A stretch of 37,122 bases of DNA from Candidatus Omnitrophota bacterium (GTDB taxonomy: Bacteria; Omnitrophota; Gorgyraeia; Gygaellales; Profunditerraquicolaceae). Positions 12,718 through 36,691 of the stretch are shown here, in pieces. The position numbers and the translations under genes are program-made. Numbering within the stretch: the stretch's first letter is position 1; every line of letters starts with the position of its first letter. The DNA is taken from contig JAKPTF010000047.1 in NCBI GenBank assembly GCA_029571225.1, forward strand, positions 1 through 37,122, given 5' to 3'. A model generated the notes under the pieces. The model was not told the DNA's origin and ran no database searches. It saw only the letters and a program-made list of their open reading frames with translations.

Positions 12718-13158
12718 ATGTTTTACGGAGAATTTTTTCACTCAATAGACCGGAAAGGACGTCTTATCCTTCCGTCCAAATTCCGCGAAGCGGCCAAGGC
12801 CAACTTCGTCGAGAAGTTCTTTGTTACGCGGGGATTGGATACATGCCTTTTTATGTTTTCCGAGGAGGAATGGCGCAGCCAGGAGACGAAGTTCAAGTCC
12901 ATGCCTTTTACTAAACAGGAATCCCGCGTCTTCAACCGTCTTTATTTTTCAGGAGCGGTCGACGTGGTTCCAGACCGCCAGGGAAGGATCCTTTTGCCAC
13001 AGTTCCAGAAGGAATACGCGCAGATCAAGAAGGATGTTGTCATCGTTGGCGTTTCGAACAGGATAGAAATCTGGGGCGCGGAGAAGTGGAAGGAATTCTT
13101 CGGCACCTGGAAACAGTCGTTCGAAGAGATAGCCGAAAAATTGGTTGAAAGCCAATAA
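12718..13158 (+). CDS. mraZ: Transcriptional regulator MraZ
   Basis: Duplicated MraZ repeats: RKGRLILPSKFRE and RQGRILLPQFQKEY; adjacent to rsmH. Confidence 0.96.
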   Translation: MFYGEFFHSIDRKGRLILPSKFREAAKANFVEKFFVTRGLDTCLFMFSEEEWRSQETKFKSMPFTKQESRVFNRLYFSGAVDVVPDRQGRILLPQFQKEYAQIKKDVVIVGVSNRIEIWGAEKWKEFFGTWKQSFEEIAEKLVESQ

Positions 13159-14066
13159 TGGTCATCATGACAGAACAGATACACACGCCGGTAATGCTCG
13201 AGGAGGTGCTCGCGTATCTCGACCTGCGGCCTGGCAAGGTCATCGTGGACGCCACGGTCGGGATGGGCGGCCATGCTCTGGAGATCGTCAAGCGGATCGC
13301 CCCCACGGGCAGGCTCATCGCTATTGACCGTGATAAGGAGTCGCTGGGCCTGGCGCAGGAGCGGCTGAAGGACTATAGCGGCATAGTCGAATTCGTGTAC
13401 GGGAATTTCTCCGACATACAGGAGATCGTAAAACGCTTGAACGTTTCCGCGATAGATGGTATAGTACTTGATCTTGGCGTTTCGATGTTCCAGTTGATGC
13501 AGCCGGACAGGGGCTTCAGCTTTACCCGGGAAGGCCCGCTCGATATGCGCCTTGACCGCAACAGTTATATTTCGGCGTACGACCTGGTGAACAACCTAAA
13601 CGAAGACGAGATTTCCAACCTCCTATGGTCGTTTGGCCAGGAACGTTGGCATAACAGGATTGCGCGCCGGTTGGTCGAAGAACGCCAGAAACACCCTATT
13701 ACGACGACAGCCGAATTGAGCGATATAGTCATGCACGCGATACCGCCGCGTTTCAGGAAGTTTCATTACCGGATTCATCCGGCCACTCGGACCTTTCAGG
13801 CCGTGCGCATAGCTGTCAACCGCGAGCTGGAAGCGCTCGAACAGGTCCTGGCAAGGACGCTTCCGCTTCTGGCGCCGGGAGGCAGGATTTGTGTCATCGC
13901 ATTCCATTCGCTCGAGGACCGGGTGGTCAAGTGGGCGTTCCGTAAAGCGGCTGCAGCCGGCACGGTAAGGATACTGACGCCCAAGCCCCTGACGCCGCAG
14001 GAAGCGCAGGTGCGGGCGAACCCGTCGAGCCGAAGTTCTAAATTCAGGGCAGCGGAGAAGATATGA
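13158..14066 (+). CDS. rsmH: 16S rRNA m4C1402 methyltransferase RsmH (MraW)
   Basis: HTPVMLEEVL, DATVGMGGHA, GIVLDLGVSMFQL, DRGFSF, DMRLD, HPATRTFQAVRIAVNRELEAL. Start could be ATG 13158 or 13167. Confidence 0.97.
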   Translation: MVIMTEQIHTPVMLEEVLAYLDLRPGKVIVDATVGMGGHALEIVKRIAPTGRLIAIDRDKESLGLAQERLKDYSGIVEFVYGNFSDIQEIVKRLNVSAIDGIVLDLGVSMFQLMQPDRGFSFTREGPLDMRLDRNSYISAYDLVNNLNEDEISNLLWSFGQERWHNRIARRLVEERQKHPITTTAELSDIVMHAIPPRFRKFHYRIHPATRTFQAVRIAVNRELEALEQVLARTLPLLAPGGRICVIAFHSLEDRVVKWAFRKAAAAGTVRILTPKPLTPQEAQVRANPSSRSSKFRAAEKI

Positions 14067-14458
14067 AAGTATCCAGGTTCCTGGCCGTCTTGATCTCGGT
14101 GACAGTTTTGTCTCTCGTGTATGTCTGGCAGCAGAACGAGATCCTGCGTCTGGCGTACGAGAGGCAGAAGAACTACGCTTTCTTTCAGGATTTGCTTGAT
14201 GCGAATTCCTCTTTGCGCTATAATCTAACTCATAATACCTCTGTGACAAAGATAGCCGGCAGGATTTCTCAAGAGAGCGATTTCACGATGCCCGATAATT
14301 ATTGTCTTGTGAAGGTTCCAGCGCCGGCACGTCAGACTTGGTACGCGCAGGGGTATACCGGTAGGAAACAGACGCTGGTGTCCCGGGTGTTCGGAATCAG
14401 GCGCCAGGCAGAGGCAAAAACGATCGACACTGCTGTCCGGTCTCTTCCCCGCGATTGA
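14063..14458 (+). CDS. ftsL: FtsL-like bitopic division protein
   Basis: Position between rsmH and ftsI; single N-terminal TM segment followed by a helical region; weak sequence conservation expected. Confidence 0.65.
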   Translation: MKVSRFLAVLISVTVLSLVYVWQQNEILRLAYERQKNYAFFQDLLDANSSLRYNLTHNTSVTKIAGRISQESDFTMPDNYCLVKVPAPARQTWYAQGYTGRKQTLVSRVFGIRRQAEAKTIDTAVRSLPRD

Positions 14459-14487: not shown

Positions 14488-16203
14488 GTGTATATAGTCA
14501 ATTATCGCCGCAGGGCCGAAGCGGTTTTTTTTGCAGTCCTTATCTTTTTTATCGCGTGCATCGCCCGCCTTCTGTATGTCCAGTTCTTCCACGCGGATTA
14601 CCTGGCTTCCATCGCCAAAAAACAGCATAACCTGTACGTTGAACTTGAGCCCCGCCGCGGAACCATCTACGACGCGAATTTCAAACCCCAGGCGGTGAAC
14701 CTGGCGTTTGAGTCGGTATTCGCGGTTCCCAACGATATGACTCAGCCCCAGAAGGAAGAGGCGTTATCCTGTCTGCCTGCGATATTAAAGATGGATGCGT
14801 CAGCCCTGCGCGACCGGCTCTGGCGCAATAAGTCGTTCGTGTGGCTTGCCCGGAAGGTCCCTTCTGATAAAATAGAGCTGATAAAGGCCCTCAAACTTAA
14901 AGGCATCGGCTTCATCAAAGAGAGCAAGCGGTGTTATCCCAACGGCTATCTTCTGAGCCACGTGCTGGGATTCGCCGGCATGGACAATAAGGGCCTCGAG
15001 GGAATCGAGCTATCCTATGACAAATACCTGAAGGGCCGGCCCGGATGGGCGTTGATGCTGCGCGACGCCCGCAGGCGCAGTTTGAACATCTATGACAATT
15101 CCATTATGCCCAAGGACGGCTATGACATCGTGCTCACAATCGACGAGGTCATCCAGTATATCGCCGAGCGGGAACTGGACGAGGTGTTCCGTAAATACCG
15201 CGCCAGAGGCGCCAGCATAGTCGTCATGGACCCAAAGACGGGCGCGGTTTTGGCCATGGCGAACAGGCCCACGTACGACCTGAACGTCCTGACGAAATTG
15301 GATAAGGACGTTATGCGCAACCGCGCCATTTGCGACATGTTCGAGCCGGGATCGGTCTTCAAGATCGTTACTGCCTCTGCGGCGCTGGAGGAGAAGAAGG
15401 TCCACGAGATGACGCCGGTTTTCTGCGAGAACGGCGAATACAGGGTTGCGGGCCGTGTCCTTCATGACCATACGCCGCACGGCACGCTTCCGTTTAAAGA
15501 GGTCATCGAAATGTCCAGCAATATCGGGACCGCGAAGGTCGCGCAGCTCCTCGGGCCAGAAACACTGTATAGGTATGTCAGGGCCTTCGGTTACGGGGAA
15601 AGATCGGGCATCGATATTCCCGGGGAGATCCCGGGTTCGATGAAGCCGCCTCGCCAGTGGTCAAAGACCACAATCACCTGCGTTCCCATGGGGCAGGAAG
15701 TCGGCGTGACGTCTTTGCAGCTCGCGTCGGGAGTGTCGGTAATAGCCAACGGCGGCAATCTCATGAGGCCGTACGTGATCAAAGAGATCAGGGATAAGAC
15801 AGGGGAAATGATTAAATACACAGCCCCTTATGTGTTGCGGCGCGTGATCAACGAAGAGACCGCCGCTAGGATGAAGAAGATTCTGATCGGCGTGGTCGAG
15901 AACGGAACGGGAAAGCTCGCCCGGCTTGACGGTTTTACCGCCGCGGGCAAGACCGGAACGGCGCAGAAGATCGAGCCTTCTGGCCAGTATTCGCACAGCC
16001 GTTTTATGGCGTCGTTCGTAGGGTTCGCTCCGGCCGAAGATCCGCAATTGGCGATCGCGGTCACGGTAGATGAGCCGCGGGGGATGTATTACGGCGGCGT
16101 TGTCGCCGCGCCAGTCTTCAAGAACGTCGCCATGGACAGCCTGAAATATCTCCGCACCAAGGATTATACGTCAGGAGCTCTGGCTTTAAATGAAACTCGT
16201 TGA
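14488..16203 (+). CDS. ftsI: Class B penicillin-binding protein (FtsI/PBP3), no PASTA domain
   Basis: GTG start; EPRRGTIYD, GSVFKIVTA (SxxK), SSN, AGKTGTAQK (KTG) motifs. Confidence 0.94.
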   Translation: MYIVNYRRRAEAVFFAVLIFFIACIARLLYVQFFHADYLASIAKKQHNLYVELEPRRGTIYDANFKPQAVNLAFESVFAVPNDMTQPQKEEALSCLPAILKMDASALRDRLWRNKSFVWLARKVPSDKIELIKALKLKGIGFIKESKRCYPNGYLLSHVLGFAGMDNKGLEGIELSYDKYLKGRPGWALMLRDARRRSLNIYDNSIMPKDGYDIVLTIDEVIQYIAERELDEVFRKYRARGASIVVMDPKTGAVLAMANRPTYDLNVLTKLDKDVMRNRAICDMFEPGSVFKIVTASAALEEKKVHEMTPVFCENGEYRVAGRVLHDHTPHGTLPFKEVIEMSSNIGTAKVAQLLGPETLYRYVRAFGYGERSGIDIPGEIPGSMKPPRQWSKTTITCVPMGQEVGVTSLQLASGVSVIANGGNLMRPYVIKEIRDKTGEMIKYTAPYVLRRVINEETAARMKKILIGVVENGTGKLARLDGFTAAGKTGTAQKIEPSGQYSHSRFMASFVGFAPAEDPQLAIAVTVDEPRGMYYGGVVAAPVFKNVAMDSLKYLRTKDYTSGALALNETR

Positions 16204-17692
16204 TCTTGTCAGTAATACGGGGGTCGTGCGCATGTACGCGGCGGCTAAACAGGTGTCGGCGGTCCCCGACCGCGACATCTCCTCGGTAAGCTGCAATTCC
16301 CGCGAGGACCTTCGTGAAGCAGTTTTTGTCGCTGTCAAGGGCACCAAGGCAGACGGCCATGCCTATATCATGGATGCGTTGCGCCGCGGCGCCGGGGCGG
16401 TCGTATTCCAGGACTCTAGACGGATCGCATCCCTGTTGAACGGGTCCGAGCAGGGAGCAGGGGACGCAGTGCTTATCCAGGTTGAGGATAGCAGGAAGGC
16501 GCTGGTCTTAATGGCAGGGGCATTCTACGGTTACCCGTCGAAATCGTTATCCGTCATAGGCATCACCGGCACCAACGGCAAGACGACGATCTCGTACCTT
16601 ATCGAGGCGATCGTGCGCAAGGCCGGCGGCAACCCGGCGGTGATCGGCACGGTCAACTACCGCTATAACGACAGGGTGATTGCTTCGGTCAATACCACCC
16701 CCGGCACTGTCGAGTTGCAGCGTCTTTTCAGGGACATGGTTAAGGGCGGTATCACCCATTGCGCCATGGAAGTGTCTTCTCATGCGCTTGACCAGGAAAG
16801 GACAAACGGGATTCGTTTTTCCTGCGGGATCTTCACCAATCTCACCCAGGACCATCTTGATTATCATAAGGACATGGAGGATTATTTCCTTGCTAAATCA
16901 AAGTTGTTCAGCGGCCTTGACGAAGGCGCGTTGGCCGTGGTTAATCAGGACGATCCGTACGGCCGCAGGCTGGCAGCGGCTACGCCCGGCCGCCTCGTTA
17001 CCTACGGCCTCGATGCATCCGCGCAGGTCAGAGGCCGCGACATACGCATGGACGCCGATCAGACGCGGTTTGTCCTGTGCGGCAACGGCCATGAGGTTCC
17101 TTTGTGTATCAGGTTGATTGGCAGGCACAATGTGTATAATGTCCTGGCAGCCTGCGCGTGGGCATTGAACGCGGGGATATCCCCGTACGTTATCAAAGAT
17201 GCGCTCGAGTCTTTTTCTTCCGTGCCTGGCAGGCTTGAGCGTATCGACGCACAGGGTGGGCTTAGGATATTTGTGGATTATGCGCACACTCCCGATGCCC
17301 TTTCCAATGTGATAACTACCCTGCGGCAGATCGCCGATAAGCGGATCATCGTGGTTTTCGGCTGCGGCGGTGACCGCGACAGGACAAAGCGGCCGGTGAT
17401 GGGAAGGGTCGCCGTAGAATTATCCGACCACGCGGTGATTACCAGCGACAATCCCAGGTCCGAAGACCCGGATGCGATCATTGGCGATATCATCCGCGGC
17501 ATTTCAAAATCTAATTATACCGTTGTCCCTGACCGGACCGCTGCCATCCGCGCCGCGCTTTCGATGGGTGCGGACGGAGATATCGTGCTGATCGCCGGCA
17601 AGGGCCATGAGACCTGCCAGATCACCAAGGACAGGGTGCTTCATTTTGACGACCGGGAGGTTGTTCGGGAATGTTTACTATCGAGGAATTGA
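16190..17692 (+). CDS. murE: UDP-MurNAc-tripeptide synthetase MurE
   Basis: GITGTNGKTTISYLIEAI, NTTPGT, MEVSSHALDQERTNGI, VDYAHTPDAL, FGCGGDRDRTKRPVMG, SDNPRSEDP (the DNPR motif suggests meso-DAP specificity). Confidence 0.97.
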   Translation: MKLVDLVSNTGVVRMYAAAKQVSAVPDRDISSVSCNSREDLREAVFVAVKGTKADGHAYIMDALRRGAGAVVFQDSRRIASLLNGSEQGAGDAVLIQVEDSRKALVLMAGAFYGYPSKSLSVIGITGTNGKTTISYLIEAIVRKAGGNPAVIGTVNYRYNDRVIASVNTTPGTVELQRLFRDMVKGGITHCAMEVSSHALDQERTNGIRFSCGIFTNLTQDHLDYHKDMEDYFLAKSKLFSGLDEGALAVVNQDDPYGRRLAAATPGRLVTYGLDASAQVRGRDIRMDADQTRFVLCGNGHEVPLCIRLIGRHNVYNVLAACAWALNAGISPYVIKDALESFSSVPGRLERIDAQGGLRIFVDYAHTPDALSNVITTLRQIADKRIIVVFGCGGDRDRTKRPVMGRVAVELSDHAVITSDNPRSEDPDAIIGDIIRGISKSNYTVVPDRTAAIRAALSMGADGDIVLIAGKGHETCQITKDRVLHFDDREVVRECLLSRN

Positions 17693-19038
17693 CCAGCGCC
17701 TCCGGCGGCAGGGTCGCCGCGCAAGGGAAGTGCAGGAACGTGAGCTCGGTATCTACGGATTCGCGCACGATCCTGCCGGAAGAGGCTTTTTGCGCCATCA
17801 GGGGGGAGAATTTCGACGGCCATGATTTTGTTCCCCAGGCGGTCCGCCGGGGTTGCCGCTGCGTCATCGTTCATCGGGGCAGCCATGTTTCTGCCGGATC
17901 CGGGGTCACGGTCATAGAAGTTGCTGATACAGTCAGGTCATACGGCGCCATCGCGCGGTTCCACCGCATGCGTTTCAATATTCCCGTCGTGGGCATTACC
18001 GGGTCGAACGGCAAGACTACGACCAAGGACATGCTCGCCTGGATACTTTCTGAGCATTCCCCTGTGTTGAAGAACGAGGGGACGAAGAACAACCATATCG
18101 GCGTGCCGGCGACGCTTTTACGTATGAACCGGTCCCATACGTGCGCCGTTATAGAGCTTGGCACGAACCATCCAGGGGAGCTGGAGTATCTTTCATGGAT
18201 ATGCGAGCCTGCCATGGCGTTGATCACGAATATAGGCCCGTCCCACCTGGAATATTTCGGGGATCTGGCCGGAGTCTGCCGCGAAAAGACGAGCCTGTTG
18301 CGAAGACGGGCAGGCCTCAGGATCGCGCTGTTGAACGCGGATGATCCATTGCTCAAAAGCAGGCTGGCGAGGCCTTCCCAGAAACCGGCGTGTTTCGGAT
18401 ACGGCATCCGTGCTGCCTGCGATTTCAAGGCCCGCGCGGTCAGCCCGGACGGCGATGGATTCCGTTTTATCATGCATCGGAAGTCTTTAATCCGGCTTAA
18501 GACGCCCGGGGAGTGCAATGTATACAATGCGCTCGCTGCGATCGCGGGGAGCCGTGTGCTTGGGGCATCATACGCATCCATTGCCCGCAGGCTTAAGACT
18601 TTCGTTTTCCCACAGGGCAGGCTAACCCTTCGCACCGTGCAGGACATCCGTTTCATCGACGATTCATATAATGCTAACCCCCGTTCAATGGAGCAGGCGA
18701 TGGATGCCCTTCGCAGGTCGCAAACTCCCTGCGGCAGGCGCGTGCTTATCATGGGAGATATGCTCGAGCTGGGACCAGGGGCTGAGCGTTTTCATCAAGA
18801 TGCTGGCAGGCTCGCAGCCGGATCCTGCGACGTGTTCATCACGGTCGGAAGGCACAGCGCTCTAGCGGCAGCAGCGGCGCTCTCGCAGGGATTCGACAGA
18901 ACAAGCGTTTTCTCCTGTGAGACGGCTGCACAGGCGCGGGATATCCTCTATAACACCGTCACGGTAACCAAGAACGACATCGTGCTCCTGAAGGGTTCCA
19001 GGGGCATGAAGCTCGAACAGGTTATCGAGCCCGGATAG
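17671..19038 (+). CDS. murF: UDP-MurNAc-tripeptide:D-Ala-D-Ala ligase MurF
   Basis: GITGSNGKTTTKDMLAWIL, NEGTKNNHIGVPATLL, ELGTNHPGEL, DDSYNANPRSM, MGDMLELG. Confidence 0.97.
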   Translation: MFTIEELTSASGGRVAAQGKCRNVSSVSTDSRTILPEEAFCAIRGENFDGHDFVPQAVRRGCRCVIVHRGSHVSAGSGVTVIEVADTVRSYGAIARFHRMRFNIPVVGITGSNGKTTTKDMLAWILSEHSPVLKNEGTKNNHIGVPATLLRMNRSHTCAVIELGTNHPGELEYLSWICEPAMALITNIGPSHLEYFGDLAGVCREKTSLLRRRAGLRIALLNADDPLLKSRLARPSQKPACFGYGIRAACDFKARAVSPDGDGFRFIMHRKSLIRLKTPGECNVYNALAAIAGSRVLGASYASIARRLKTFVFPQGRLTLRTVQDIRFIDDSYNANPRSMEQAMDALRRSQTPCGRRVLIMGDMLELGPGAERFHQDAGRLAAGSCDVFITVGRHSALAAAAALSQGFDRTSVFSCETAAQARDILYNTVTVTKNDIVLLKGSRGMKLEQVIEPG

Positions 19039-19055
19039 AAAGAAACGGCCGATCT

Positions 19056-20147
19056 ATGCTGTATTATCTGCTTTCTCCGTTCCAGGATACCTTCAACTTC
19101 CTGAACATATTCCGTTATATCACATTCCGAGCGAGTATGGCCGCTTTGACTGCCTTCGCCTTGAGCCTCATGTTCGGCCCGGCTATCATCCGGATGCTCA
19201 AGGCACTGCACATCGGACAGAATATCAGGGACCGCAAGGTCAGCGAAAGACTAAACGATCTGCACAGGGGAAAACAGGGAACGCCCACCATGGGCGGCAT
19301 TTTCATCCTGATCGCTATCACGGTATCCACCCTGTTGTGGGCTGAAATCACGAACAGATTCATACTTCTGGCGTTGTTCGGAACCCTGTGGCTGGGAGTG
19401 ACCGGTTTTATGGACGATTACCTAAAAGTCGTGAAAGGTTGTTCCAGAGGTTTGACCGCGTCCGCAAAATTCACCAGCCAGATAATACTGGGCCTTGCCG
19501 TCGGAATCATTCTGTATCTCGACCCGGCCAACGGCACGCGACTCGACATGCCGTTCCTCAAGAACGTGTCCGTAGATCTCGGTATTTTCTACATAGTTTT
19601 CGCCGTCGTGGTCATTACGGGTTCGTCGAACGCCGTGAATCTGACCGACGGCCTGGACGGACTGGCTATTGGCACGACCGTATTCGCCTCAATCGCGTTT
19701 GCGGTTTTGTGCTACGTCACGGGTAACATCAGGATCAGCGAATACCTGCTCATACCTTTCATTAAGGGCAGCGGAGAGCTGACCGTGTTCTGCGCCAGCA
19801 TCGTCGGCGCAGGACTCGGGTTCCTTTGGTTCAATTGTTTTCCTGCCGCGGTCTTTATGGGTGACGTCGGCGCCCTGGCGCTCGGCGGGGCCCTGGGGAT
19901 CGTGGCGCTTCTCATCAAGAAAGAAATGCTGCTTGTCCTTGTCGGCGGGATCTTTGTAATAGAGGCGTTATCGGTAATAATCCAGGTCGCGTCGTTCAGG
20001 TTAACGGGCAGGCGAGTGTTCAAATGCTCTCCTTTGCATCATCATTTCCAGTTCATCGGCTGGTCGGAGAACCAGATCATCGTGAGGTTCTGGATTATCG
20101 CCAGCCTTCTGGCATTGCTGACGCTGGTGACACTGAAGATCCGCTAA
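19056..20147 (+). CDS. mraY: Phospho-N-acetylmuramoyl-pentapeptide transferase
   Basis: Multi-TM; KQGTPTMGG, GFMDDYLKV, NAVNLTDGLDGLAIG, PLHHHFQFIGWSE. Confidence 0.98.
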   Translation: MLYYLLSPFQDTFNFLNIFRYITFRASMAALTAFALSLMFGPAIIRMLKALHIGQNIRDRKVSERLNDLHRGKQGTPTMGGIFILIAITVSTLLWAEITNRFILLALFGTLWLGVTGFMDDYLKVVKGCSRGLTASAKFTSQIILGLAVGIILYLDPANGTRLDMPFLKNVSVDLGIFYIVFAVVVITGSSNAVNLTDGLDGLAIGTTVFASIAFAVLCYVTGNIRISEYLLIPFIKGSGELTVFCASIVGAGLGFLWFNCFPAAVFMGDVGALALGGALGIVALLIKKEMLLVLVGGIFVIEALSVIIQVASFRLTGRRVFKCSPLHHHFQFIGWSENQIIVRFWIIASLLALLTLVTLKIR

Positions 20148-20156
20148 TGTTCATCC

Positions 20157-21434
20157 ATGAAGAATATAAATCTGTACTCTGGTAAAAAGATCGCGGTCAT
20201 CGGCCTTGCGCGCAGCGGTCTGGCATGCGCCAACCTCCTGCACAGCCTGGGGGCGCATGTCCGGGTTACGGATTCCAAGCAGCGCGGAGAACTTGCCGAT
20301 ACGATCCGTCAACTGGCGAGCCGCCAGATCACTCTTGAGTGCGGGGTGCACACAGAGGATACGATCGCCGGGTGCGATATGGCGGTGCTTTCCCCGGGGA
20401 TCCCGGATACGGCCCTGCCGGTGCAGTGGGCGCGCGCGCGCGGCATTCCGGTTTACAGTGAGATAGAGGTCGCCTGGACACTGTGCCCGGCGCCGGTCAT
20501 CGCCGTAACCGGTTCCAACGGCAAGACGACCACTACCACACTGATGGGCCTCGTGCTGGAAGCGGCCGGCCTGCGCGCGGTCGTGTGCGGCAATATCGGC
20601 GATCCGTTCAGCGGTGAAGTGGCAGGGATTAGGCCTCAGGACCATGTCGTCCTGGAGGTAAGTTCGTTCCAGCTGGAACATATCAGGACTTTCAAGCCCC
20701 ATATCGCTATTGTGACGAACCTCAATCCGAACCATCTTGACCGTTACGGCGACCTTCAGGAATATATCGGCGCCAAGAAGCGGATCTTCCTCAATCAGGA
20801 TGAGGGCGACCATCTGCTCTTGAACAGGGGTGACAGGGCGTCTGGGGAGTTCGCCGCTGGGGCCCGGTCGAAGGTTTCATATTTCGACGAAGAACCAGGG
20901 TTGAACCAGAATCAGGCCGCAGTGGTCAAGGCAGCGGGTATAATGGGCATATCACGCGGGGTCTGCATGAAGGTTTTTGCTGATTTCAAAGGCCTGGAGC
21001 ACCGGATGGAACAGGTTGCGCGTATTAACGGGGTTACGTTCATAAACGATTCGAAGGCGACTACGGTCGAGTCCGCCATGTGGGCGCTGCGCAACATCCC
21101 GCAGCAGGCGGTGTTGATTGCTGGCGGCAAAGACAAGGGGCTTGATTACCGGTTGATACTGGACCTTGCGCGCAGGAAACTTCGTTCCTGCGTCCTTATC
21201 GGCCAGGCTGCGGATAAGATCGCAAGCGTATTCGAAGGAGTTATCGATGTGGAGAAGGCAGGGGATATGGAGGACGCGGTGAGAAGGGCCTTCGAAAAAG
21301 CCTCTCCCGGCGATACAGTGATCCTGTCGCCTATGTGTTCGTCATACGATATGTTTGTTGATTACGAGGAGCGGGGAAGGGTATTCAAAAAAGCAGTTCT
21401 GGATCTGGAGGCAAATGCGCGCACTTCGGGTTAA
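20157..21434 (+). CDS. murD: UDP-MurNAc-L-Ala:D-Glu ligase MurD
   Basis: AVTGSNGKTTTTTLMG, NIGDPF, EVSSFQLE, NDSKATTVES, SPMCSSYDMF. Confidence 0.97.
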   Translation: MKNINLYSGKKIAVIGLARSGLACANLLHSLGAHVRVTDSKQRGELADTIRQLASRQITLECGVHTEDTIAGCDMAVLSPGIPDTALPVQWARARGIPVYSEIEVAWTLCPAPVIAVTGSNGKTTTTTLMGLVLEAAGLRAVVCGNIGDPFSGEVAGIRPQDHVVLEVSSFQLEHIRTFKPHIAIVTNLNPNHLDRYGDLQEYIGAKKRIFLNQDEGDHLLLNRGDRASGEFAAGARSKVSYFDEEPGLNQNQAAVVKAAGIMGISRGVCMKVFADFKGLEHRMEQVARINGVTFINDSKATTVESAMWALRNIPQQAVLIAGGKDKGLDYRLILDLARRKLRSCVLIGQAADKIASVFEGVIDVEKAGDMEDAVRRAFEKASPGDTVILSPMCSSYDMFVDYEERGRVFKKAVLDLEANARTSG

Positions 21435-22506
21435 TATCTTCATGACCAGCATGATGCTGATCTGTATCGGCATCGTGATGATTTACAGCGCATCAGGGAT
21501 TTACGCCCTTAACCAGTACAGGGACGGGTTTTTTTTCCTGAAGCGCCATCTGTTGTTCATCTTTATCGGCCTGCTGGCAACTTTTTCCGTGATGGCCTTT
21601 GACTACCGCAAACTCAAGAAATACGCCCGTCCCGCTTTGTGGGTCGCGTTTTTGCTTCTGGTGCTGGTGCTGGTACCGCATATCGGCAGGGAAGTGTCCG
21701 GCGCCAGGCGCTGGTTCCGCATAAAATTCGTCAGTTTCCAGCCTTCGTCATATGCCTGTATCGCGCTTATTGTTTACGTGGCAGATTTCATAGACCGCAA
21801 GGGGAATTTCATACGCACGATACGGTGGGGCCTGCTGCCTGTGATGTCCGTTTTAGCCCTTATGTCCGGCCTGATATTGATCGAGCCTGATCTGGGGACT
21901 ACCCTGGCGATCGGGGCGGTTGTGTTTGTCATGCTGTATGTTTCGGGGGTGCGGCTGGCTTATCTGGGTTCGATAATCCTGAGTTCTATACCGGCGCTTT
22001 ATTTTTTGATCTTCAGCATCCCGTACCGGCGCATGCGAATCCTGGCTTTCCTGAATCCGTGGGCTGACCCGAAAGGCAGCGGATTCCAGATAATTCAGTC
22101 GCAGGTGGCGCTGGGTTCAGGCGGCATTTTCGGGGTTGGGCTAGGACATTCCCAGCAGAAGCTTTTTTACCTGCCCGCGGCCCATACCGATTTCATTTTT
22201 TCTATAATAGGCGAGGAACTGGGGCTCATAGGAACGTTAGGGGTCATCATCCTGTTTATAGTGTTCATCAAACAGGGGCTGATGATCGTCAAGCACGCGC
22301 CGGATAAATTCGGATATTTTCTTGCATTGGGGCTTGTGCTTCTGGTTAGCCTCAAGGCCATGGTGAACATCGGCGTCTCATGCGGGATCCTGCCGACCAA
22401 GGGCTTGCCGCTGCCGTTTATCAGTTACGGCGGGTCCTCGTTCATATTCGACATGATGAGCGTCGGCCTTTTGATGAACATCGGCCGCGCGGGAGAGTAC
22501 CCATAA
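21415..22506 (+). CDS. ftsW: SEDS peptidoglycan polymerase FtsW
   Basis: Multi-TM; IEPDLGTTL, GSGGIFGVGLGHSQQKLFYLPAAHTDFIFSIIGEELG, LPFISYGGSS; start trimmed to ATG 21415. Confidence 0.96.
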   Translation: MRALRVNIFMTSMMLICIGIVMIYSASGIYALNQYRDGFFFLKRHLLFIFIGLLATFSVMAFDYRKLKKYARPALWVAFLLLVLVLVPHIGREVSGARRWFRIKFVSFQPSSYACIALIVYVADFIDRKGNFIRTIRWGLLPVMSVLALMSGLILIEPDLGTTLAIGAVVFVMLYVSGVRLAYLGSIILSSIPALYFLIFSIPYRRMRILAFLNPWADPKGSGFQIIQSQVALGSGGIFGVGLGHSQQKLFYLPAAHTDFIFSIIGEELGLIGTLGVIILFIVFIKQGLMIVKHAPDKFGYFLALGLVLLVSLKAMVNIGVSCGILPTKGLPLPFISYGGSSFIFDMMSVGLLMNIGRAGEYP

Positions 22507-22513
22507 GAGACAG

Positions 22514-23614
22514 GTGCGCGTGATGCGGATACTGGCGGTAACGGGTTCCAGCGGCGGTCATATATTCCCGGCGGCAGGTTTTCTCGACGAATTCAGGGCA
22601 GCGTATCCGGGGACCGCCACCATGCTTGTCCTGCCGGCTCGGAGCATCGAAACCCCTGCGTTGTCCCGGGAGCATCAGGTATGCCGTATCAGCGCCGGCA
22701 CCCTGTCTTTGAAGCCGTGCCGGAAGAATATCGTTTCGCTGTTTCTTTTTATAAAAAGTTTCTTTGAAAGCATTGTTTTGCTGGCCAGGTTTAAACCCGA
22801 TATTGTCGCCGGGTTCGGCAGTATTGCCAGCATTCCCGTAGTTATATGCGCCTGGCTGTTCAGGATCACGGTCGTCATACACGAACAGAACGTTCTGCCC
22901 GGCAGGGCGAACAGGTTGCTGGCGCATATCGCCGACCGGATCGCGGTGTCGTTTGAGCAAAGCAAAGGATTTTTCGGCGTTAACAGGGACAGGGTTGTCT
23001 GGACCGGCAATGTCGTGCGAAGCAGCCTGGTGCGGATCGAAAAACGCAGCGCGCGGAGGCATTTCGGCCTTGACCCGGATAAACGCACAATACTTGTAAT
23101 GGGAGGCAGCCAGGCGTCTCACAGTATCAATTTCGTTTTCGCCGGAGTGTACAGGGGCCTTCCGTGGCGCGATGAGTGCCAGGTGATCCATCTGTGCGGG
23201 GAAACGGACAGGCAGGCGCTTGAACGGGAATACGCCGGGAGCATACGGTCCGTCAGGCTTATCGGATTCCTGCGCGAAATGGAGTATGCCTACAGCGCAG
23301 CTGACCTGGCAATATGCCGGGCTGGCGCGACAACTATTGCGGAACTGGCCGCGTACCGTCTGCCTGCTGTCCTGGTCCCGTATCCTCATGCATACGGCCA
23401 CCAGGAGTTCAACGCGAAAGTGCTTGCCGACAAAGGGTGCGCAATTATTGTCGCCGACGGCCGGATGGCCGACGGCGACTTGCGAAGCGCCGTTGAAGCC
23501 TTGGCAGGGAACGGCGCATCGCTTGCTGACATGGAACGGTCGTTCGACAAAATGAATTCTTCCGCACCGGCATCCCTTGTGAAGGAGGCAATGGCAATAC
23601 ATCATCATGAATGA
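22514..23614 (+). CDS. murG: UDP-GlcNAc:lipid I transferase MurG
   Basis: TGSSGGHIFPA, HEQNVLPGRANRLL, GGSQASHSIN, CRAGATTIAEL; GTG 22514 or ATG 22523 start. Confidence 0.95.
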   Translation: MRVMRILAVTGSSGGHIFPAAGFLDEFRAAYPGTATMLVLPARSIETPALSREHQVCRISAGTLSLKPCRKNIVSLFLFIKSFFESIVLLARFKPDIVAGFGSIASIPVVICAWLFRITVVIHEQNVLPGRANRLLAHIADRIAVSFEQSKGFFGVNRDRVVWTGNVVRSSLVRIEKRSARRHFGLDPDKRTILVMGGSQASHSINFVFAGVYRGLPWRDECQVIHLCGETDRQALEREYAGSIRSVRLIGFLREMEYAYSAADLAICRAGATTIAELAAYRLPAVLVPYPHAYGHQEFNAKVLADKGCAIIVADGRMADGDLRSAVEALAGNGASLADMERSFDKMNSSAPASLVKEAMAIHHHE

Positions 23615-24974
23615 ACGCTACCATTTTATAGGCATCGGAGGCATAGGCATGTCGGGTATCGCGCAGCTGCTGATCGCGCGCGGCGGCAAAGTCAGCGGGT
23701 CTGACGTCAGGGAAAACGCCATGACACAGCTTCTTGCCGGGCTGGGGGCACGCATCTCCATAGGCCACGCCGCGGGCAATATCGCGGATGCCGATTATGT
23801 CGTCTATTCGTCGGCCGTCAAAGAAGATAACCCCGAGATGAGGGAGGCGCGCAGGCGCGGCATACCCGTCATGCAGCGGGCAGAGGCGCTCGCGCGGCTC
23901 ATGCGCGATAAGAAGGTCATATGCGTCACAGGCAGCCACGGCAAGACCACGACAACGTCGCTGGTGTCCCATATGCTGCTTGAGGCGCGGCTGTCGCCGA
24001 CCGTTGCGATCGGCGGCAATCTCAAGAACATTAACGCCAATGCCCTGGTAGGAGAAGGCGATTTTTTCTGCGCCGAAGCGGATGAATCGGACGGATCATT
24101 CCTTCATTATTCGCCTCTTTATTCCATCATAACCAATGTGGACCGGGAACATCTTGACCATTACGGGACCTTTGATGCTGTTATTGCCGCATACGCGGCG
24201 TTCATGGAAAGGACGCGGCCAGGAGGGTGTCTGTTCTGTTGCGGTGACGACGAGAACCTCGTGCGCCTGTGCCGGTCGCATCAAGGGCGGAGGGTCCTGT
24301 TCGGTCTCGGAGCTGCGTGCGACGTCTCAGCCAGGAATATCCGTATTGAAGGATTGTCCTCCGTGTTCGACTGTGTTTGCGGCGGCAGGCAAACCGGTAC
24401 GTTCCGCCTGTCGGCAGGCGGGCTGCATAATATATCCAATGCATTGAGCGTGATCGCACTGGGAGATGAGCTTCGGATAGACCGTGCGGTCATAACCCGG
24501 GCACTTGAGACGTATAAGGGCGCGGGCCGCAGGCTCGACGTAAAATGGCACGGCATGGAACTTATGGTCATTGACGATTACGCGCATCATCCGACCGAGA
24601 TCAAGGCGACGCTGGCAGCGGTAAGGAACCTGCAATGCAAAAGGCTTATTGCGGTGTTCCAGCCGCACCGCTATTCCCGGACGCGGCTGCTGCTTGATGA
24701 TTTTGCTTCCTGTTTCGATGCCGCGGACCTTGTGTTCCTTACCGATATTTACCCTGCCGGCGAGCAGCCCATTCCCGGGGTCACGCCCGAATGCGTGCGC
24801 GACGCGATCCGGAAACACTCTGCCGGAAAGCAGGTCGAGGTGATTCCGAAGAGCGGGCTTACGGAGCATGTCAGGCGCATCCTGGAGCCGGGAGACATCG
24901 TTCTGATGCTTGGAGCAGGGGATATCACGAGGATAAGCGATGAGCTTGCAGCAGAACTGTCCGGTTCCGTATAA
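23607..24974 (+). CDS. murC: UDP-MurNAc:L-Ala ligase MurC
   Basis: HFIGIGGIGMSGIAQLL, VTGSHGKTTTTSL, EADESDGSF, DDYAHHPTEIKATL, FQPHRYSRT. Confidence 0.98.
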   Translation: MNERYHFIGIGGIGMSGIAQLLIARGGKVSGSDVRENAMTQLLAGLGARISIGHAAGNIADADYVVYSSAVKEDNPEMREARRRGIPVMQRAEALARLMRDKKVICVTGSHGKTTTTSLVSHMLLEARLSPTVAIGGNLKNINANALVGEGDFFCAEADESDGSFLHYSPLYSIITNVDREHLDHYGTFDAVIAAYAAFMERTRPGGCLFCCGDDENLVRLCRSHQGRRVLFGLGAACDVSARNIRIEGLSSVFDCVCGGRQTGTFRLSAGGLHNISNALSVIALGDELRIDRAVITRALETYKGAGRRLDVKWHGMELMVIDDYAHHPTEIKATLAAVRNLQCKRLIAVFQPHRYSRTRLLLDDFASCFDAADLVFLTDIYPAGEQPIPGVTPECVRDAIRKHSAGKQVEVIPKSGLTEHVRRILEPGDIVLMLGAGDITRISDELAAELSGSV

Positions 24975-25821
24975 AAAAAAGGTCCGCCTTTCGCGTCATA
25001 CTACGTTCGGCATAGGCGGGCCGGCGCAGTTCTGGGCAGAGCCCGGGGACGTCTCTGCTTTGTCCGATCTGGTGCGCTGGTGCAGGACGCGACGGATGCG
25101 TATCCGCGTGATCGGCGCGGGAAGCAATATACTCGTTGCGGACCGCGGGGTCAAAGGATTCGTAGTGAAGTTGAACGCTCCATGTTTCTGCGGGATTGCG
25201 CGGGTCAACGGCCGCGTCATAGCCGGAGCCGGCGCGCCGCTTGCACGGTTGATTGCGTTCTGCGCAGGCGCGGGCTTATCCGGAGCTGAGTTCCTGCACG
25301 GCATTCCCGGAACTGTCGGCGGCGCAGTGGTCGGCAATGCCGGCTCAGGGACCCTGTCCATAGGGGATTTAGTTGAATTTGTCGTCGTTATGGATTATAA
25401 TGGCAAAATATCGAAACTTGAGGCCAAGGACATCGGTTTTTCTTATCGCCGTTCAGGCCTCGACAACGTCATTGTCCTGCAGGCATGCATGAGATTGTCC
25501 GTCTGCGCGCCGTCCGTTATACGCCGCAGAATAGCCCAGTATGCGCGGATGCGGCGCCTGACGCAGGGATCAGGATGGCGCAGCGCAGGATGCTGTTTCA
25601 AGAACCCTGGGAGCGAGTCTGCAGGCAGGCTTATAGATGCCTGCGGCCTGAAAGGTAGCCGCTGCGGCCGGGCGGTTGTTTCCAGGATCCATGCGAATTT
25701 CATACTCAATGACGGGCGCGCGGCTGCGTCGGATGTCCGCCGCCTGATGCGGCGCATCACATCCGCAGTCAAAAAAAAGTTCGGCATCAGATTGGAGCCT
25801 GAGATACGGATATGGCAATGA
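24940..25821 (+). CDS. murB: UDP-N-acetylenolpyruvoylglucosamine reductase MurB
   Basis: HTTFGIGGPAQFW, IGAGSNILVADRGVKG, GIPGTVGGAVVGNAG, FSYRRSGL, SAGCCFKNP, HANFILN; overlaps murC by 35 nt. Confidence 0.95.
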   Translation: MSLQQNCPVPYKKKVRLSRHTTFGIGGPAQFWAEPGDVSALSDLVRWCRTRRMRIRVIGAGSNILVADRGVKGFVVKLNAPCFCGIARVNGRVIAGAGAPLARLIAFCAGAGLSGAEFLHGIPGTVGGAVVGNAGSGTLSIGDLVEFVVVMDYNGKISKLEAKDIGFSYRRSGLDNVIVLQACMRLSVCAPSVIRRRIAQYARMRRLTQGSGWRSAGCCFKNPGSESAGRLIDACGLKGSRCGRAVVSRIHANFILNDGRAAASDVRRLMRRITSAVKKKFGIRLEPEIRIWQ

Positions 25822-26765
25822 CATACCCTATAAAGAGCGGTTTTGGCAAAGTCGGCGTGCTTATGGGCGGCCCGTCCGAGGAACGGCAAATATCGCTGAG
25901 GTCCGCTGCGGCGGTGTGCGAGAGCCTCAAGCAGCAGGGGCTCGACGTGGTGCCTCTTGATATAACGACTGATGACGCCGTATCAAACGCCGCATTGATC
26001 CGGTCGAGCATGATCGACTGCGCTTTTGTCGTGCTTCACGGCAGGTTCGGAGAAGACGGCACTATTCAGCAGATTCTGGAAGACCTTCAAATCCCATATA
26101 CAGGATCGGGCGTAGAAGCGAGCAGGCGCGCCATGGATAAGGTTGTTTCGCAGGAAATGTTCCTCCGGGCCGGCCTGCGCGTGCCCGAATATGTGAATGT
26201 ATCCCGATCCGCATTCGAGCGGGGTGCGGTGGTGAAAGTGCCTTTTGCCCTGCCGTGGGTCGTCAAACCTTCCCGCCAGGGGTCCAGCATCGGCCTTTCC
26301 ATCATAGATTCCCCCGACGGGCTTGGAGCGGCCATCAGGCTGGCGCTGGAAACGGACGACACGGCAGTTGTGCAGCAGTATATCAGGGGCAGGGAGTTGA
26401 CCGTGGCAATCCTCGAAGGAAAGCCGCTGCCTGTCATCGAGATCGTAACGACGAGGCGGTTCTTTGATTACGAGGCCAAGTATCAAAACGGATTCACCAA
26501 GTATATCGCCCCGGCCCTGCTAGACGCAACGGCCGCCTCACTCGTTCAGGAGGCTGCCATAGCCGCCCATCGGGCGCTTGGCTGCACGGGATATTCGCGC
26601 GTTGACATCATCCTGGGGGAAGATCGCGTTCCGTATATCCTTGAATTGAACAACATCCCGGGGCTCACGCAGACAAGCCTGCTGCCTAAGGCGGCGCGAT
26701 GCGCGGGAATAGATTTTAACCAGTTGTGCATCAGGATGCTCGGGTCTATCTATGAGAAGAAATAA
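25812..26765 (+). CDS. ddl: D-alanine:D-alanine ligase
   Basis: HGRFGEDGTIQQILEDLQIPYTGSGVEASRRAMDK, KPSRQGSSIGLS, DYEAKYQNGFTKYIAPA, LELNNIPGLTQTSL. Confidence 0.96.
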   Translation: MAMTYPIKSGFGKVGVLMGGPSEERQISLRSAAAVCESLKQQGLDVVPLDITTDDAVSNAALIRSSMIDCAFVVLHGRFGEDGTIQQILEDLQIPYTGSGVEASRRAMDKVVSQEMFLRAGLRVPEYVNVSRSAFERGAVVKVPFALPWVVKPSRQGSSIGLSIIDSPDGLGAAIRLALETDDTAVVQQYIRGRELTVAILEGKPLPVIEIVTTRRFFDYEAKYQNGFTKYIAPALLDATAASLVQEAAIAAHRALGCTGYSRVDIILGEDRVPYILELNNIPGLTQTSLLPKAARCAGIDFNQLCIRMLGSIYEKK

Positions 26766-27531
26766 ACCACTGTCCCCGCGGCAGAGCCGGAGCCGCCCTT
26801 CAGCGGCTGTGCCGGGCATTGTCCTGGCGCTTGTCCTTGTGTGCGCCGGTGCCGTATCGGTGCAATCGTTCAGGACACACGATTTTTTCAAGGTCAAGGA
26901 TATCATAATACGCGAAGGCACGAAAATACGCGACGACCGTGACAACGACCTCAAATTCCTAATCGGCAAGAACATATTCACGCTTGATTTGAAAAAGAAC
27001 GTTCAATTCATACAGTCCATGTATCCCGCCTACAGGACTGCGCGCCTTGTGAAGTTCCTGCCGAACCAGATGTGCCTTGACCTGATGAAACGCAACGCCG
27101 TTGCCTGCGTAAACACACAGCCGCCGTTATACATCGATGACCGGATGATTTTCTTTGAAGCGGTCGATCCCGCTTCCGCACAGAAGCTGCCGCTTATTTC
27201 GGGCATAGATACGACGAACCGGAATTTCAGGTCCGGAATGCGGACGAGCCACGCCGGAGTGATCTTCGCCGTGCGCCTCATACAGCAGGTAAAGGAAAAT
27301 AAGGTCCTGCAGCGCTATAATATCGAGCGCGTCGTAGTGCATGACGCGGTAAACGCATCGTTATATCTTTCCGGCCCTCTGGAAGTCCGTATCGGGGCCG
27401 GAAAACTAGACGATTCCCTGCATATACTGGCAAGCCTGCTGAACCAGGTTGGCAACGGCGTATCCAATATAGAATACATCGACCTGAGGTTCAAGGACCC
27501 GGTTATACGTTTTAAAGGCAAGGAGGCTTGA
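26752..27531 (+). CDS. ftsQ: Cell division protein FtsQ/DivIB (POTRA domain)
   Basis: N-terminal TM, POTRA-like region (FKVKDIIIREGTKI...GKNIFTLDLKKNVQFIQSMYPAYRTARLVKFLPNQM); between ddl and ftsA. Confidence 0.85.
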   Translation: MRRNKPLSPRQSRSRPSAAVPGIVLALVLVCAGAVSVQSFRTHDFFKVKDIIIREGTKIRDDRDNDLKFLIGKNIFTLDLKKNVQFIQSMYPAYRTARLVKFLPNQMCLDLMKRNAVACVNTQPPLYIDDRMIFFEAVDPASAQKLPLISGIDTTNRNFRSGMRTSHAGVIFAVRLIQQVKENKVLQRYNIERVVVHDAVNASLYLSGPLEVRIGAGKLDDSLHILASLLNQVGNGVSNIEYIDLRFKDPVIRFKGKEA

Positions 27532-27537
27532 GGGCAC

Positions 27538-28794
27538 ATGCTTGAGAATTCCATATGCGCACTGGATATCGGTTCGTCTAAGATTGCCGCGGTCGTCGCG
27601 CAGGTGAAAAAGGGGCATATCACCCGGATGTCCTTTGCGACGGCACCAGCCCGGGGCATCGCAAAAGGCGTTATCGTCGATTCCGTTGACCTCGTAGATG
27701 CGGTGACCAGGGTCATGAAGGATTTGAAAGCGTCCTCCGGGGTAAACGTGCGCGCGCTCTTCACCAATATTTCCGGAAGGCATATCACGACCAGGCACAG
27801 CAAGGCAGTGATCCCGCTTGCCCAGCGAGGGAATAAGCTCATTACGGCATCCGATATCCATAAGGTTAATGAGCAAGCCCGTATTTTGGGCTCGAGCATG
27901 GAAGAGGAAATCGTGCACGCGATACCGTTCGGATATTCCATCGATTCGAACGCAGCCATTGTAAATCCGATCGGGCTTTACAGCCACAGGCTCGAAGTTG
28001 ACCTGTATCTGGTGTGCGCGAACCTGGCTTCCGTCCAGACCGTTACGCATGTAGTCAACCAGGCCGGCTTCGACGTTAAGGGGCTCTTTTTTTCCGGTAT
28101 TGCCGGAGCCGCTATCGTGTTCCCCGAAGAGAACCGAAAGGGGACCCGCGTCCTGTGCGATATCGGCAGCGATGTTACGGAATTGCTGTTTTTCAAGGAC
28201 GGGTATCTGAAGAATATACGCGTCCTGGCAACTGGCGGGGACGAGTTGACTAACGGGCTCGCCGAGTCGCTGACCATCCCATGGGAACTGGCGGAGGATA
28301 TCAAGGTTTCCTACGGGATAGTCGGCGAACAGACGCGTGTCTCCGAGGACAAAGAGGTTTTGATCAAAAAAGACAATATTTACAAACCGGTGAAACAGCG
28401 CCAGGTATGCGAGACCATCACTGCCAGGGCGCGGACGCTGGTCAATCAGATCAAAGAGGCTGTGGAGAAAGAGGTCTCCCTGGTTCGCATCGATTCGTTT
28501 GTCGTGACCGGAAGGACGATATTTCAGGAAGGGCTGCTGGAAATGCTAGAGGCGGTTCTTGGTATCAGGGTCGCATGCGGCCGGATCACGGATCCGCAGA
28601 TCATCCCCTTCGCGAACAAGAACGATGTCCTTTCGGGCCAGAAATACCTGACCTATCTGACCACGCTTGGCATTATCTCTCACCAGTTGAAAGAATTACA
28701 GCCGAGCAAAGACGATTCGTTTTCCAGAATCCCCGACCATCCTATCCTCAGGATCTTCCATAAAGCCTGGGAAATCTATCAGGAATATTTCTAA
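27538..28794 (+). CDS. ftsA: Cell division protein FtsA
   Basis: ALDIGSSKIAAVVAQ, NISGRHI, CDIGSDVTELLFFKDG, ATGGDELTNGLAESL, VVTGRTIFQEGLLEML; amphipathic C-terminus HPILRIFHKAWEIYQEYF. Confidence 0.94.
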   Translation: MLENSICALDIGSSKIAAVVAQVKKGHITRMSFATAPARGIAKGVIVDSVDLVDAVTRVMKDLKASSGVNVRALFTNISGRHITTRHSKAVIPLAQRGNKLITASDIHKVNEQARILGSSMEEEIVHAIPFGYSIDSNAAIVNPIGLYSHRLEVDLYLVCANLASVQTVTHVVNQAGFDVKGLFFSGIAGAAIVFPEENRKGTRVLCDIGSDVTELLFFKDGYLKNIRVLATGGDELTNGLAESLTIPWELAEDIKVSYGIVGEQTRVSEDKEVLIKKDNIYKPVKQRQVCETITARARTLVNQIKEAVEKEVSLVRIDSFVVTGRTIFQEGLLEMLEAVLGIRVACGRITDPQIIPFANKNDVLSGQKYLTYLTTLGIISHQLKELQPSKDDSFSRIPDHPILRIFHKAWEIYQEYF

Positions 28795-28838
28795 AAATAA
28801 CGGGGATCAGAACCTTCCCCACAGTGCTCCTTTTTAGG

Positions 28839-28866
28839 TTGACCCGCAGGGCCGTGCGTGTATAAT
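28839..28866 (+). promoter_or_regulatory. Sigma70-like promoter upstream of yggS (TTGACC, 16 bp, TATAAT)
   Basis: TTGACC 28839-28844; TATAAT 28861-28866; lies in the second-largest non-coding gap of the cell-division region. Confidence 0.72.
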
Positions 28867-28882
28867 ATAAGAGTTTACAGCC

Positions 28883-29542
28883 ATGATCAGCGAGAATGTG
28901 CAGAGAGTGAAGGCGAGGATTGATGCGGCATGCCGCCGCGTCAACCGCGATCCTGCAGGGGTGACACTCGTTGCAGTGACCAAAGGCAGGCCCGTAGAGG
29001 ATATTCTTCAGGTCCTGGATACCGGCGTCCTCGATATCGGGGAGAACAGGGTTCAGGAGGCCGCGAAGAAATATGAAGAAGTCTGCCGTCTGGCACCGGC
29101 CCCGCAGCAGGTCAGGTGGCATATGATCGGCCACCTGCAGACCAATAAAGTAAGGGAGGCGGTGCGCATCTTCAGCCTCATCCATTCGGTTGACAGCCTT
29201 CGCCTGGCGCAGGAAATAGATAGACACGCGGCACACGCAGGCAAGATCCAGGATATTCTTCTGGAGGTCAAAACGTCGCCAGAGGATACTAAGTACGGGA
29301 TTTCTCCGGAAGAGTTTACTGCTGTCGCTAGCGATATTTCGCGGCTTTCGCACGTGCGCCTGCGCGGAGCCATGACCATGGCCCCTCGGGGCCTAAGTGG
29401 CGGGTTAGCCCGGCCTTATTTCCGCATCGTTAGCCGGCTCGGCCAGCAGGTCGTTTCAATGGGAATGTCGGATGATTTTGAGGTCGCGATCGAAGAAGGC
29501 GCGACGATCGTGCGCGTGGGCAGGTTATTATTCGAGGCATAG
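28883..29542 (+). CDS. yggS: PLP homeostasis protein, YggS/YlmE family
   Basis: LVAVTKGRPVEDI, DIGENRVQEA, WHMIGHLQTNKVRE, IHSVDSLRLAQEI, TKYGISPEE, MGMSDDFEVAIEEGATIVRVG. Confidence 0.94.
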   Translation: MISENVQRVKARIDAACRRVNRDPAGVTLVAVTKGRPVEDILQVLDTGVLDIGENRVQEAAKKYEEVCRLAPAPQQVRWHMIGHLQTNKVREAVRIFSLIHSVDSLRLAQEIDRHAAHAGKIQDILLEVKTSPEDTKYGISPEEFTAVASDISRLSHVRLRGAMTMAPRGLSGGLARPYFRIVSRLGQQVVSMGMSDDFEVAIEEGATIVRVGRLLFEA

Positions 29543-35887: not shown

Positions 35888-36691
35888 ATGGCCGGGAATA
35901 ACACGGGTTTAAAACTCCTTGTCGTATTGTTGGTGGTTGTTTCACTCGCATTGGGCATAGGCGGATATGTACTGCTTAAGCAGGAAAAAGAGCGCAGTGC
36001 ACAGCTGGAGTCAGAACTGAACGATACCAGGGGGAAATACCGGCAGGCCCAGGCGGAGATTGAGCAGCAGAATACAAAGATCGCCGGACTTTCATCGAGC
36101 CTCGACAACGCGAACATTGAGATCAGGAAGCTTAATGCGAAAGTGAGCGAAGAACAGCAGGCCAGGCAGGAAGCCGTCTCGAAGCTCGAGGCATTGACCG
36201 CTGACTTGAAGAAACAGTCGAATATTGCCGGAGAGCTTCAGAAGAAATTGAGCGAATCCCAGAGCGCTTTGCAGGAAGCGGATAAGCGCCTGAAGGAAAT
36301 GGAATTGCAGCTCAAGACGGCGGAGGCAAAAAAATCAGAGCTGGAGCAAAAGGTTAAATCACTGGAAGAAAAGGCCGCCAACGTTGAACTAGGCAAGATC
36401 GTAGTGAGCCCGGAACCTGCTGCGAAGAAGAAGGTTGAGCCCCCTAAAGAGCCGGCCAAGAAGCTCGAAGGCAAGGTGCTTGTCGTGAATAAGGATTACC
36501 GTTTCGCCGTAATCAACCTTGGCAGCAAGGACGGCGTCAATGTCGGAGCCGTTTTTTCGGTCGTGCACAGCGGCAAGAACATCGGCGACATCAAGGTCGA
36601 GAAGGTGCACGACACGATGTCCGCCGCAGGTTTTGTGACGCCGGAACTCAAGGATAAGATCCTCGAAGGCGATTCGGTCATTCAAAAATAA
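35888..36691 (+). CDS. Membrane-anchored coiled-coil protein with a C-terminal Gly/Val-rich beta domain, uncharacterised
   Basis: N-terminal TM (LKLLVVLLVVVSLALGIGGYVLL), about 130 aa of Gln/Glu/Lys/Leu-rich heptad-like sequence, Pro/Lys linker, then GKVLVVNKDYRFAVINLGSKDGVNVGAVFSVV... Confidence 0.8.
   Translation: MAGNNTGLKLLVVLLVVVSLALGIGGYVLLKQEKERSAQLESELNDTRGKYRQAQAEIEQQNTKIAGLSSSLDNANIEIRKLNAKVSEEQQARQEAVSKLEALTADLKKQSNIAGELQKKLSESQSALQEADKRLKEMELQLKTAEAKKSELEQKVKSLEEKAANVELGKIVVSPEPAAKKKVEPPKEPAKKLEGKVLVVNKDYRFAVINLGSKDGVNVGAVFSVVHSGKNIGDIKVEKVHDTMSAAGFVTPELKDKILEGDSVIQK

Follow-up and report, generated by a model that had tools for sequence, protein, structure and literature searches.

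Most genomes of the Omnitrophota encode the cell-division protein FtsA without FtsZ, and in some lineages FtsA has lost much or nearly all of its subdomain 2B. FtsZ is the tubulin-like protein used for division by nearly all bacteria, and FtsA is its membrane anchor and partner. We consider it probable that ftsZ was cleanly removed at an early stage of the phylum's history, that FtsA works without FtsZ as a platform on which subdomain 2B has been relaxed, and that MreB and FtsK place the septum. The starting point of the analysis was the window, a stretch of 37,122 nucleotides from a Candidatus Omnitrophota contig (JAKPTF010000047.1), which carries a dcw cluster and a short gap where ftsZ would be expected (Table 1).

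Table 1. Features of the dcw cluster and its surroundings in the window.
Feature	Position	Strand	Evidence
mraZ, start of dcw cluster	12718..13158	+	PF02381 E=2e-37
mraW (rsmH)	13158..14066	+	PF01795 E=7e-101
ftsL-like ORF (131 aa)	14063..14458	+	position between mraW and ftsI only; no Pfam match
ftsI, septal transpeptidase	14488..16203	+	PF00905 E=9e-78; PF03717
murE, murF, mraY, murD	16190..21434	+	Mur ligase domains, Glycos_transf_4; individual names also by order
ftsW	21355..22506	+	PF01098 E=6e-114
murG, murC, murB, ddl	22514..26765	+	family searches
ftsQ	26752..27531	+	PF03799 E=2e-7
ftsA (418 aa), SHS2 (1C) and FtsA domains, C-terminal amphipathic helix ILRIFHKAWEIYQEYF	27538..28794	+	TIGR01174, PF02491, PF14450
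88-bp intergenic gap, slot expected for ftsZ by cluster order	28795..28882	+	without FtsZ similarity
promoter-like element 5' of yggS, TTGACC-16-TATAAT	28839..28866	+	conserved in three relatives
yggS	28883..29542	+	TIGR00044 E=4e-51
aroA, 5' part, cut by contig end	36692..37122	+	reading frame

ftsZ in the window and across the phylum

The cluster runs mraZ-mraW-(ftsL-like ORF)-ftsI-murE-murF-mraY-murD-ftsW-murG-murC-murB-ddl-ftsQ-ftsA. Family searches bear out the canonical order from mraZ to ftsA that an initial sequence-only reading had proposed, with the qualifications that the ftsL-like ORF is without a Pfam match and that the individual Mur ligases were named partly by their order. The same reading was correct in placing 88 bp between the end of ftsA (28794) and the start of yggS (28883), in finding a promoter there (TTGACC-N16-TATAAT, 11 of 12 matches) and in stating that no FtsZ is encoded anywhere in the window. 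The scanned region holds two promoter-like matches, which overlap, against 0.2 expected. Because the ftsA–yggS gaps of three relatives (L001, L002 and L052) carry the same TTGACC-N16-TATAAT element, the stretch resembles a conserved promoter region and not a scar with gene remains.

The sequence-only reading had allowed for either relocation or loss of ftsZ, and had proposed a search for FtsZ in the rest of the genome and a comparison of ftsA–yggS spacing in relatives. Loss is supported and relocation is not. A search of the window's own genome (88% complete, 114 contigs) with PF00091 returned zero tubulin matches, so that no FtsZ was found outside the window either. Across 285 Omnitrophota genomes sampled over the phylum, PF00091 gave one match only, to a TubZ-like protein and not to a canonical FtsZ, and none of 270 genomes exceeded the cut-off of the full-length ftsZ model, TIGR00065; 13 of 14 control genomes were detected by both profiles. 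The 216 high-quality genomes contain no tubulin detectable with PF00091 apart from one TubZ-like match, and four single-contig genomes (G073, G075, G215 and G249) were rechecked and contain no FtsZ.

The sole tubulin-family match (G198:C10:19434-20456, or L035 8426-9709; PF00091, E=3e-13) also matches the TubZ-like C-terminal domain PF22453, and its neighbours are unrelated genes. The genome that carries it has no FtsA past 1e-25. In the relatives examined, the gene after ftsA is yggS, proC or another gene and never ftsZ, and tblastn with FtsZ references detected none in those loci; over all loci examined, ten such references (seven annotated, three read from ORFs) produced only a weak match to the TubZ-like protein. 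In two loci from different families (L042 and L045), an ORF that reads like pilT overlaps the ftsA stop.

That ftsZ is merely missing from the assembly, through incompleteness or a misjoin at 28795-28882, is an explanation to which we give almost no weight. The completeness and fragmentation of the window's genome would leave room for such a gap, but the identical junction occurs in independent genomes, and ftsZ is absent from the single-contig genomes and, bar the TubZ-like match, from the 216 high-quality ones. A join within the gap itself is excluded because same-family relatives share the ftsA–yggS junction, the two genes lying 39-159 bp apart.

The FtsZ partners MinC and ZapA were each detected in 0 of 107 Omnitrophota genomes. 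Tubulin-family proteins can diverge far, and in a recheck of 12 genomes we obtained two sub-threshold tubulin matches (E 0.03-0.1). A highly divergent tubulin or FtsZ encoded elsewhere, overlooked by profile searches and still anchored by FtsA, is nevertheless very improbable: the two matches are single, come from two different genomes and score 12.9-14 bits, below the cut-off, whereas the same search detects the TubZ-like protein at E=3e-13. MinC and ZapA, moreover, are absent, and R300, D242 and in places the whole of subdomain 2B have been lost from FtsA (see below).

The loss of FtsZ in Omnitrophica had already been noted; the retention of FtsA in 237 of 270 genomes and the decay of subdomain 2B are new. 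A survey of 362 bacteria gives Omnitrophica as lacking FtsZ in a figure legend, and its wording on Gracilicutes implies that Omnitrophica FtsA is present; its text deals with presence and absence only and contains no analysis of FtsA decay (Pende et al. 2021, PMC8178401). Rivas-Marin 2016 listed FtsZ for a single Omnitrophica, OLB16, and took no position on the rest (PMC5147048). OLB16 (NCBI taxid 1617433) is now filed by NCBI in Candidatus Hinthialibacterota. The contrary claim rested on this genome alone. The absence of FtsZ across the sampled phylum helps to settle the conflict in the literature over Omnitrophota FtsZ. A 2017 review (PMC5945725) and a 2025 paper (PMC12283558) still group Omnitrophota with FtsZ-bearing phyla. 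Our literature search found nothing on FtsA in Omnitrophota genomes beyond its presence or absence.

FtsA and its subdomain 2B

The count of 237 FtsA-bearing genomes among 270 (186 of 210 high-quality ones) was obtained with a profile, A2, built from Omnitrophota FtsAs and applied at a threshold of 1e-25. A count with TIGR01174 at E<=0.001 gave 270 of 270 and was discarded, since this model also picks up MreB, at E=5e-17. FtsA went undetected in some genomes, chiefly of family f36, and is therefore not indispensable across the phylum. Many f36 genomes (among G168, G175, G176, G178, G198 and others) have no FtsA above 1e-25, which is perhaps a further step of erosion. FtsA keeps its dcw place beside ftsQ wherever examined.

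The window FtsA passes TIGR01174 (214 bits, curated cut-off 175.85) and contains both the SHS2 (1C, PF02491) and FtsA (PF14450) domains. Its relatives, at 49-83% identity, are found in four MAGs, three of them Candidatus Omnitrophota, and its 83% identity to the FtsA of L001 lies at the upper end of the range for neighbouring genes (62-88%). The earlier claim that its ATPase motifs are kept holds in part: the nucleotide-binding core is partly retained, and the glycines G214 and G337 of E. coli are replaced by D and R, respectively. The amphipathic C-terminal helix described at the same time is supported (hydrophobic moment 0.64 versus 0.27 for shuffled sequence, p=0.001), and 41 of 42 Omnitrophota FtsAs have a C-terminal YF. 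An AlphaFold model of the window FtsA (four sequences) reached a pLDDT of 52 and a pTM of 0.46.

Subdomain 2B is where the FtsZ tail binds (PMC9098913). Our alignment comprised 42 FtsAs from Omnitrophota and 12 for comparison, and the statistics are based on 28 dereplicated Omnitrophota sequences. The 12 comparison FtsAs (E. coli K-12, ten copies from plasmid records in PLSDB and a partial S. aureus PDB chain) form a mixed, largely FtsZ-bearing set, and a copy taken from a plasmid record may differ from the main FtsA of its organism. The PLSDB sequences are from Sinorhizobium, Bacillus, Paenibacillus, Sphingomonas, Legionella, Leptospira, Tistrella, Paracoccus, Acetoanaerobium and Fusobacterium. 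ftsZ is annotated directly 3' of ftsA in seven comparison loci, and an ORF with the tubulin signature was read as ftsZ downstream of ftsA in Tistrella, Paracoccus and Fusobacterium. These ten are the members checked for FtsZ, the other two being Acetoanaerobium (whose ORF is 711 aa as read) and S. aureus; a Rossellomorea FtsA whose gene is not followed by ftsZ was excluded. Mean within-set identity is equal in the two FtsA sets (28% and 26%).

Two residues that we take to lie in subdomain 2B, R300 and D242 (E. coli numbering), are rarely kept in Omnitrophota. R300 of E. coli FtsA presumably touches the FtsZ tail, and D242 is a putative part of the site. R300 occurs in 11 of the 12 FtsAs of the mixed comparison set versus 4 of 28 from Omnitrophota, and D242 in 11 of 12 versus 2 of 28. 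Among columns conserved at >=80% in the comparison set, the largest drops are at D242, L334, G214 and R300; L334 and G214, which are outside 2B, fall as strongly as R300. P146, A254, G336 and G381 stay conserved. The window FtsA has a full-length 2B with R at the R300 position and G at D242; at R300, five members of its family carry R, A, K, S or Q.

Elsewhere in the phylum 2B is reduced outright. Eight genomes, from families f8, f21 and f43, encode an FtsA of 353-380 aa in which only 9-14 residues remain of the 61 in E. coli (positions 243-303), and in three f10 genomes 37 of 61 remain, with the hairpin stretch lost. In three other FtsAs (L088, L087 and L086), 2B is expanded by insertion to about 100 residues. 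In the 12 comparison FtsAs, the 2B span is never shorter than 52 residues. The altered Omnitrophota proteins all have an intact subdomain 1C (81-82 residues) and retain the C-terminal helix with its final YF, and their genes all adjoin ddl and ftsQ; one short FtsA still scores 216 bits, past the ftsA cut-off. According to PMC4281207, deletion of 2B abolishes the interaction with FtsZ, for which strands S12-S13 are essential, and 1C serves self-interaction and the recruitment of FtsQ and FtsN. Loss of 2B with retention of 1C and the helix fits an FtsA freed from FtsZ and kept for other duties. Because most of the phylum keeps FtsA without FtsZ, and some of these FtsAs are without 2B, FtsA appears to do something useful in the absence of FtsZ.

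A candidate mode of division without FtsZ

MreB and FtsK were each found in 104 of 107 Omnitrophota genomes and SPOR domains in 101 of 107, and bactofilin is frequent. At the level of the phylum, this is the pattern of PVC-type division (no FtsZ, with MreB and FtsK kept), and the FtsZ gene that marks an FtsZ-dependent divisome is missing.

Judging from sequence and by analogy, FtsA is most likely a membrane platform for FtsQ, FtsW and FtsI in the absence of a Z-ring, with MreB and FtsK placing septal synthesis. ftsZ would have been removed cleanly from between ftsA and the genes now 3' of it, most simply at an early point in the phylum. FtsA would bind nucleotide and sit on the membrane via its C-terminal helix, and its 1C subdomain would self-assemble and recruit FtsQ and, through FtsQ, FtsW and FtsI. 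Subdomain 2B, with its FtsZ-tail-binding function, would be under relaxed constraint, extending to deletion in some lineages. MreB filaments and FtsK may supply the placing and dynamics that otherwise come from the Z-ring, as in Chlamydia; chlamydial MreB directs division in E. coli without FtsZ activity (PMC7029139), and a role of MreB in Omnitrophota division is suggested by this analogy. FtsA, FtsQ, FtsW and FtsI may divide cells without FtsZ, as the first reading proposed for the case that FtsZ is really absent. More tentatively, the Omnitrophota may run an FtsA-based divisome in which the septal membrane scaffold belongs to the actin family and not to the tubulins, and several families may have shed 2B as a result; we regard this as possible rather than probable.

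FtsA and MreB are both actin-like, SPOR domains are common in the phylum, and E. coli FtsA forms filaments with FtsN (PMC7613929). FtsA and MreB might accordingly co-polymerise, or FtsA alone might be a moving septal filament, giving an actin-based division ring. FtsA is undetected in part of the phylum, which counts against such a ring, and we consider it somewhat unlikely. FtsA might also have been kept for some role outside division, such as a PilM-like one in a type IV pilus, with MreB and FtsK alone running division. This is a distinctly less likely explanation. It draws on the weak similarity of FtsA to PilM, on the overlap of the pilT-like ORF with the end of ftsA in L042 and L045 and on the failure to detect FtsA in most of the listed f36 genomes, but in every lineage examined ftsA stays in the dcw cluster beside ftsQ, and 1C, described as the part that recruits FtsQ and FtsN (PMC4281207), is retained while 2B goes.

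Chlamydiota likewise lack FtsZ, possess MreB and FtsK and keep peptidoglycan genes (PMC12283558, PMC7029139), but they are also without FtsA (PMC8178401), whereas Omnitrophota keep FtsA in most genomes. The budding planctomycete Planctopirus limnophila (Planctomycetota) lacks FtsZ and has FtsK and many dcw genes, but it has no ftsA, and its listed dcw genes except ftsK are non-essential (PMC12283558); here, by contrast, the dcw cluster is intact and contiguous. The canonical divisome of E. coli and Bacillus has FtsA, FtsQ, FtsW, FtsI and mur genes in one cluster, as do the Omnitrophota, which differ in lacking FtsZ, MinC and ZapA and in having an FtsA with 2B relaxed or deleted. The phylum thus provides a natural experiment that separates the roles of FtsA, with the FtsZ-binding part dropped in some lineages and the divisome-recruiting and membrane parts kept.

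Elongasome genes downstream of the cluster

The right end of the window (contig C101, 37122) falls inside aroA, and contig C14 (reverse) of the same genome starts inside aroA and continues with mreB-mreC-mreD-mrdA-rodA. The dcw cluster therefore appears to continue past the contig end into aroA-mreB-mreC-mreD-mrdA-rodA, forming a single supercluster of dcw and elongasome genes. The same order downstream of rluD was found in G102, G075 and G073 (from sequence and tblastn), so that several genomes have their mre genes shortly after the dcw genes in one such supercluster. Between rluD and aroA in the window lies a coiled-coil ORF (35888-36691, 267 aa) with weak crescentin-like similarity, and a homologue that is 42% identical occupies the same position in G102 (L058).
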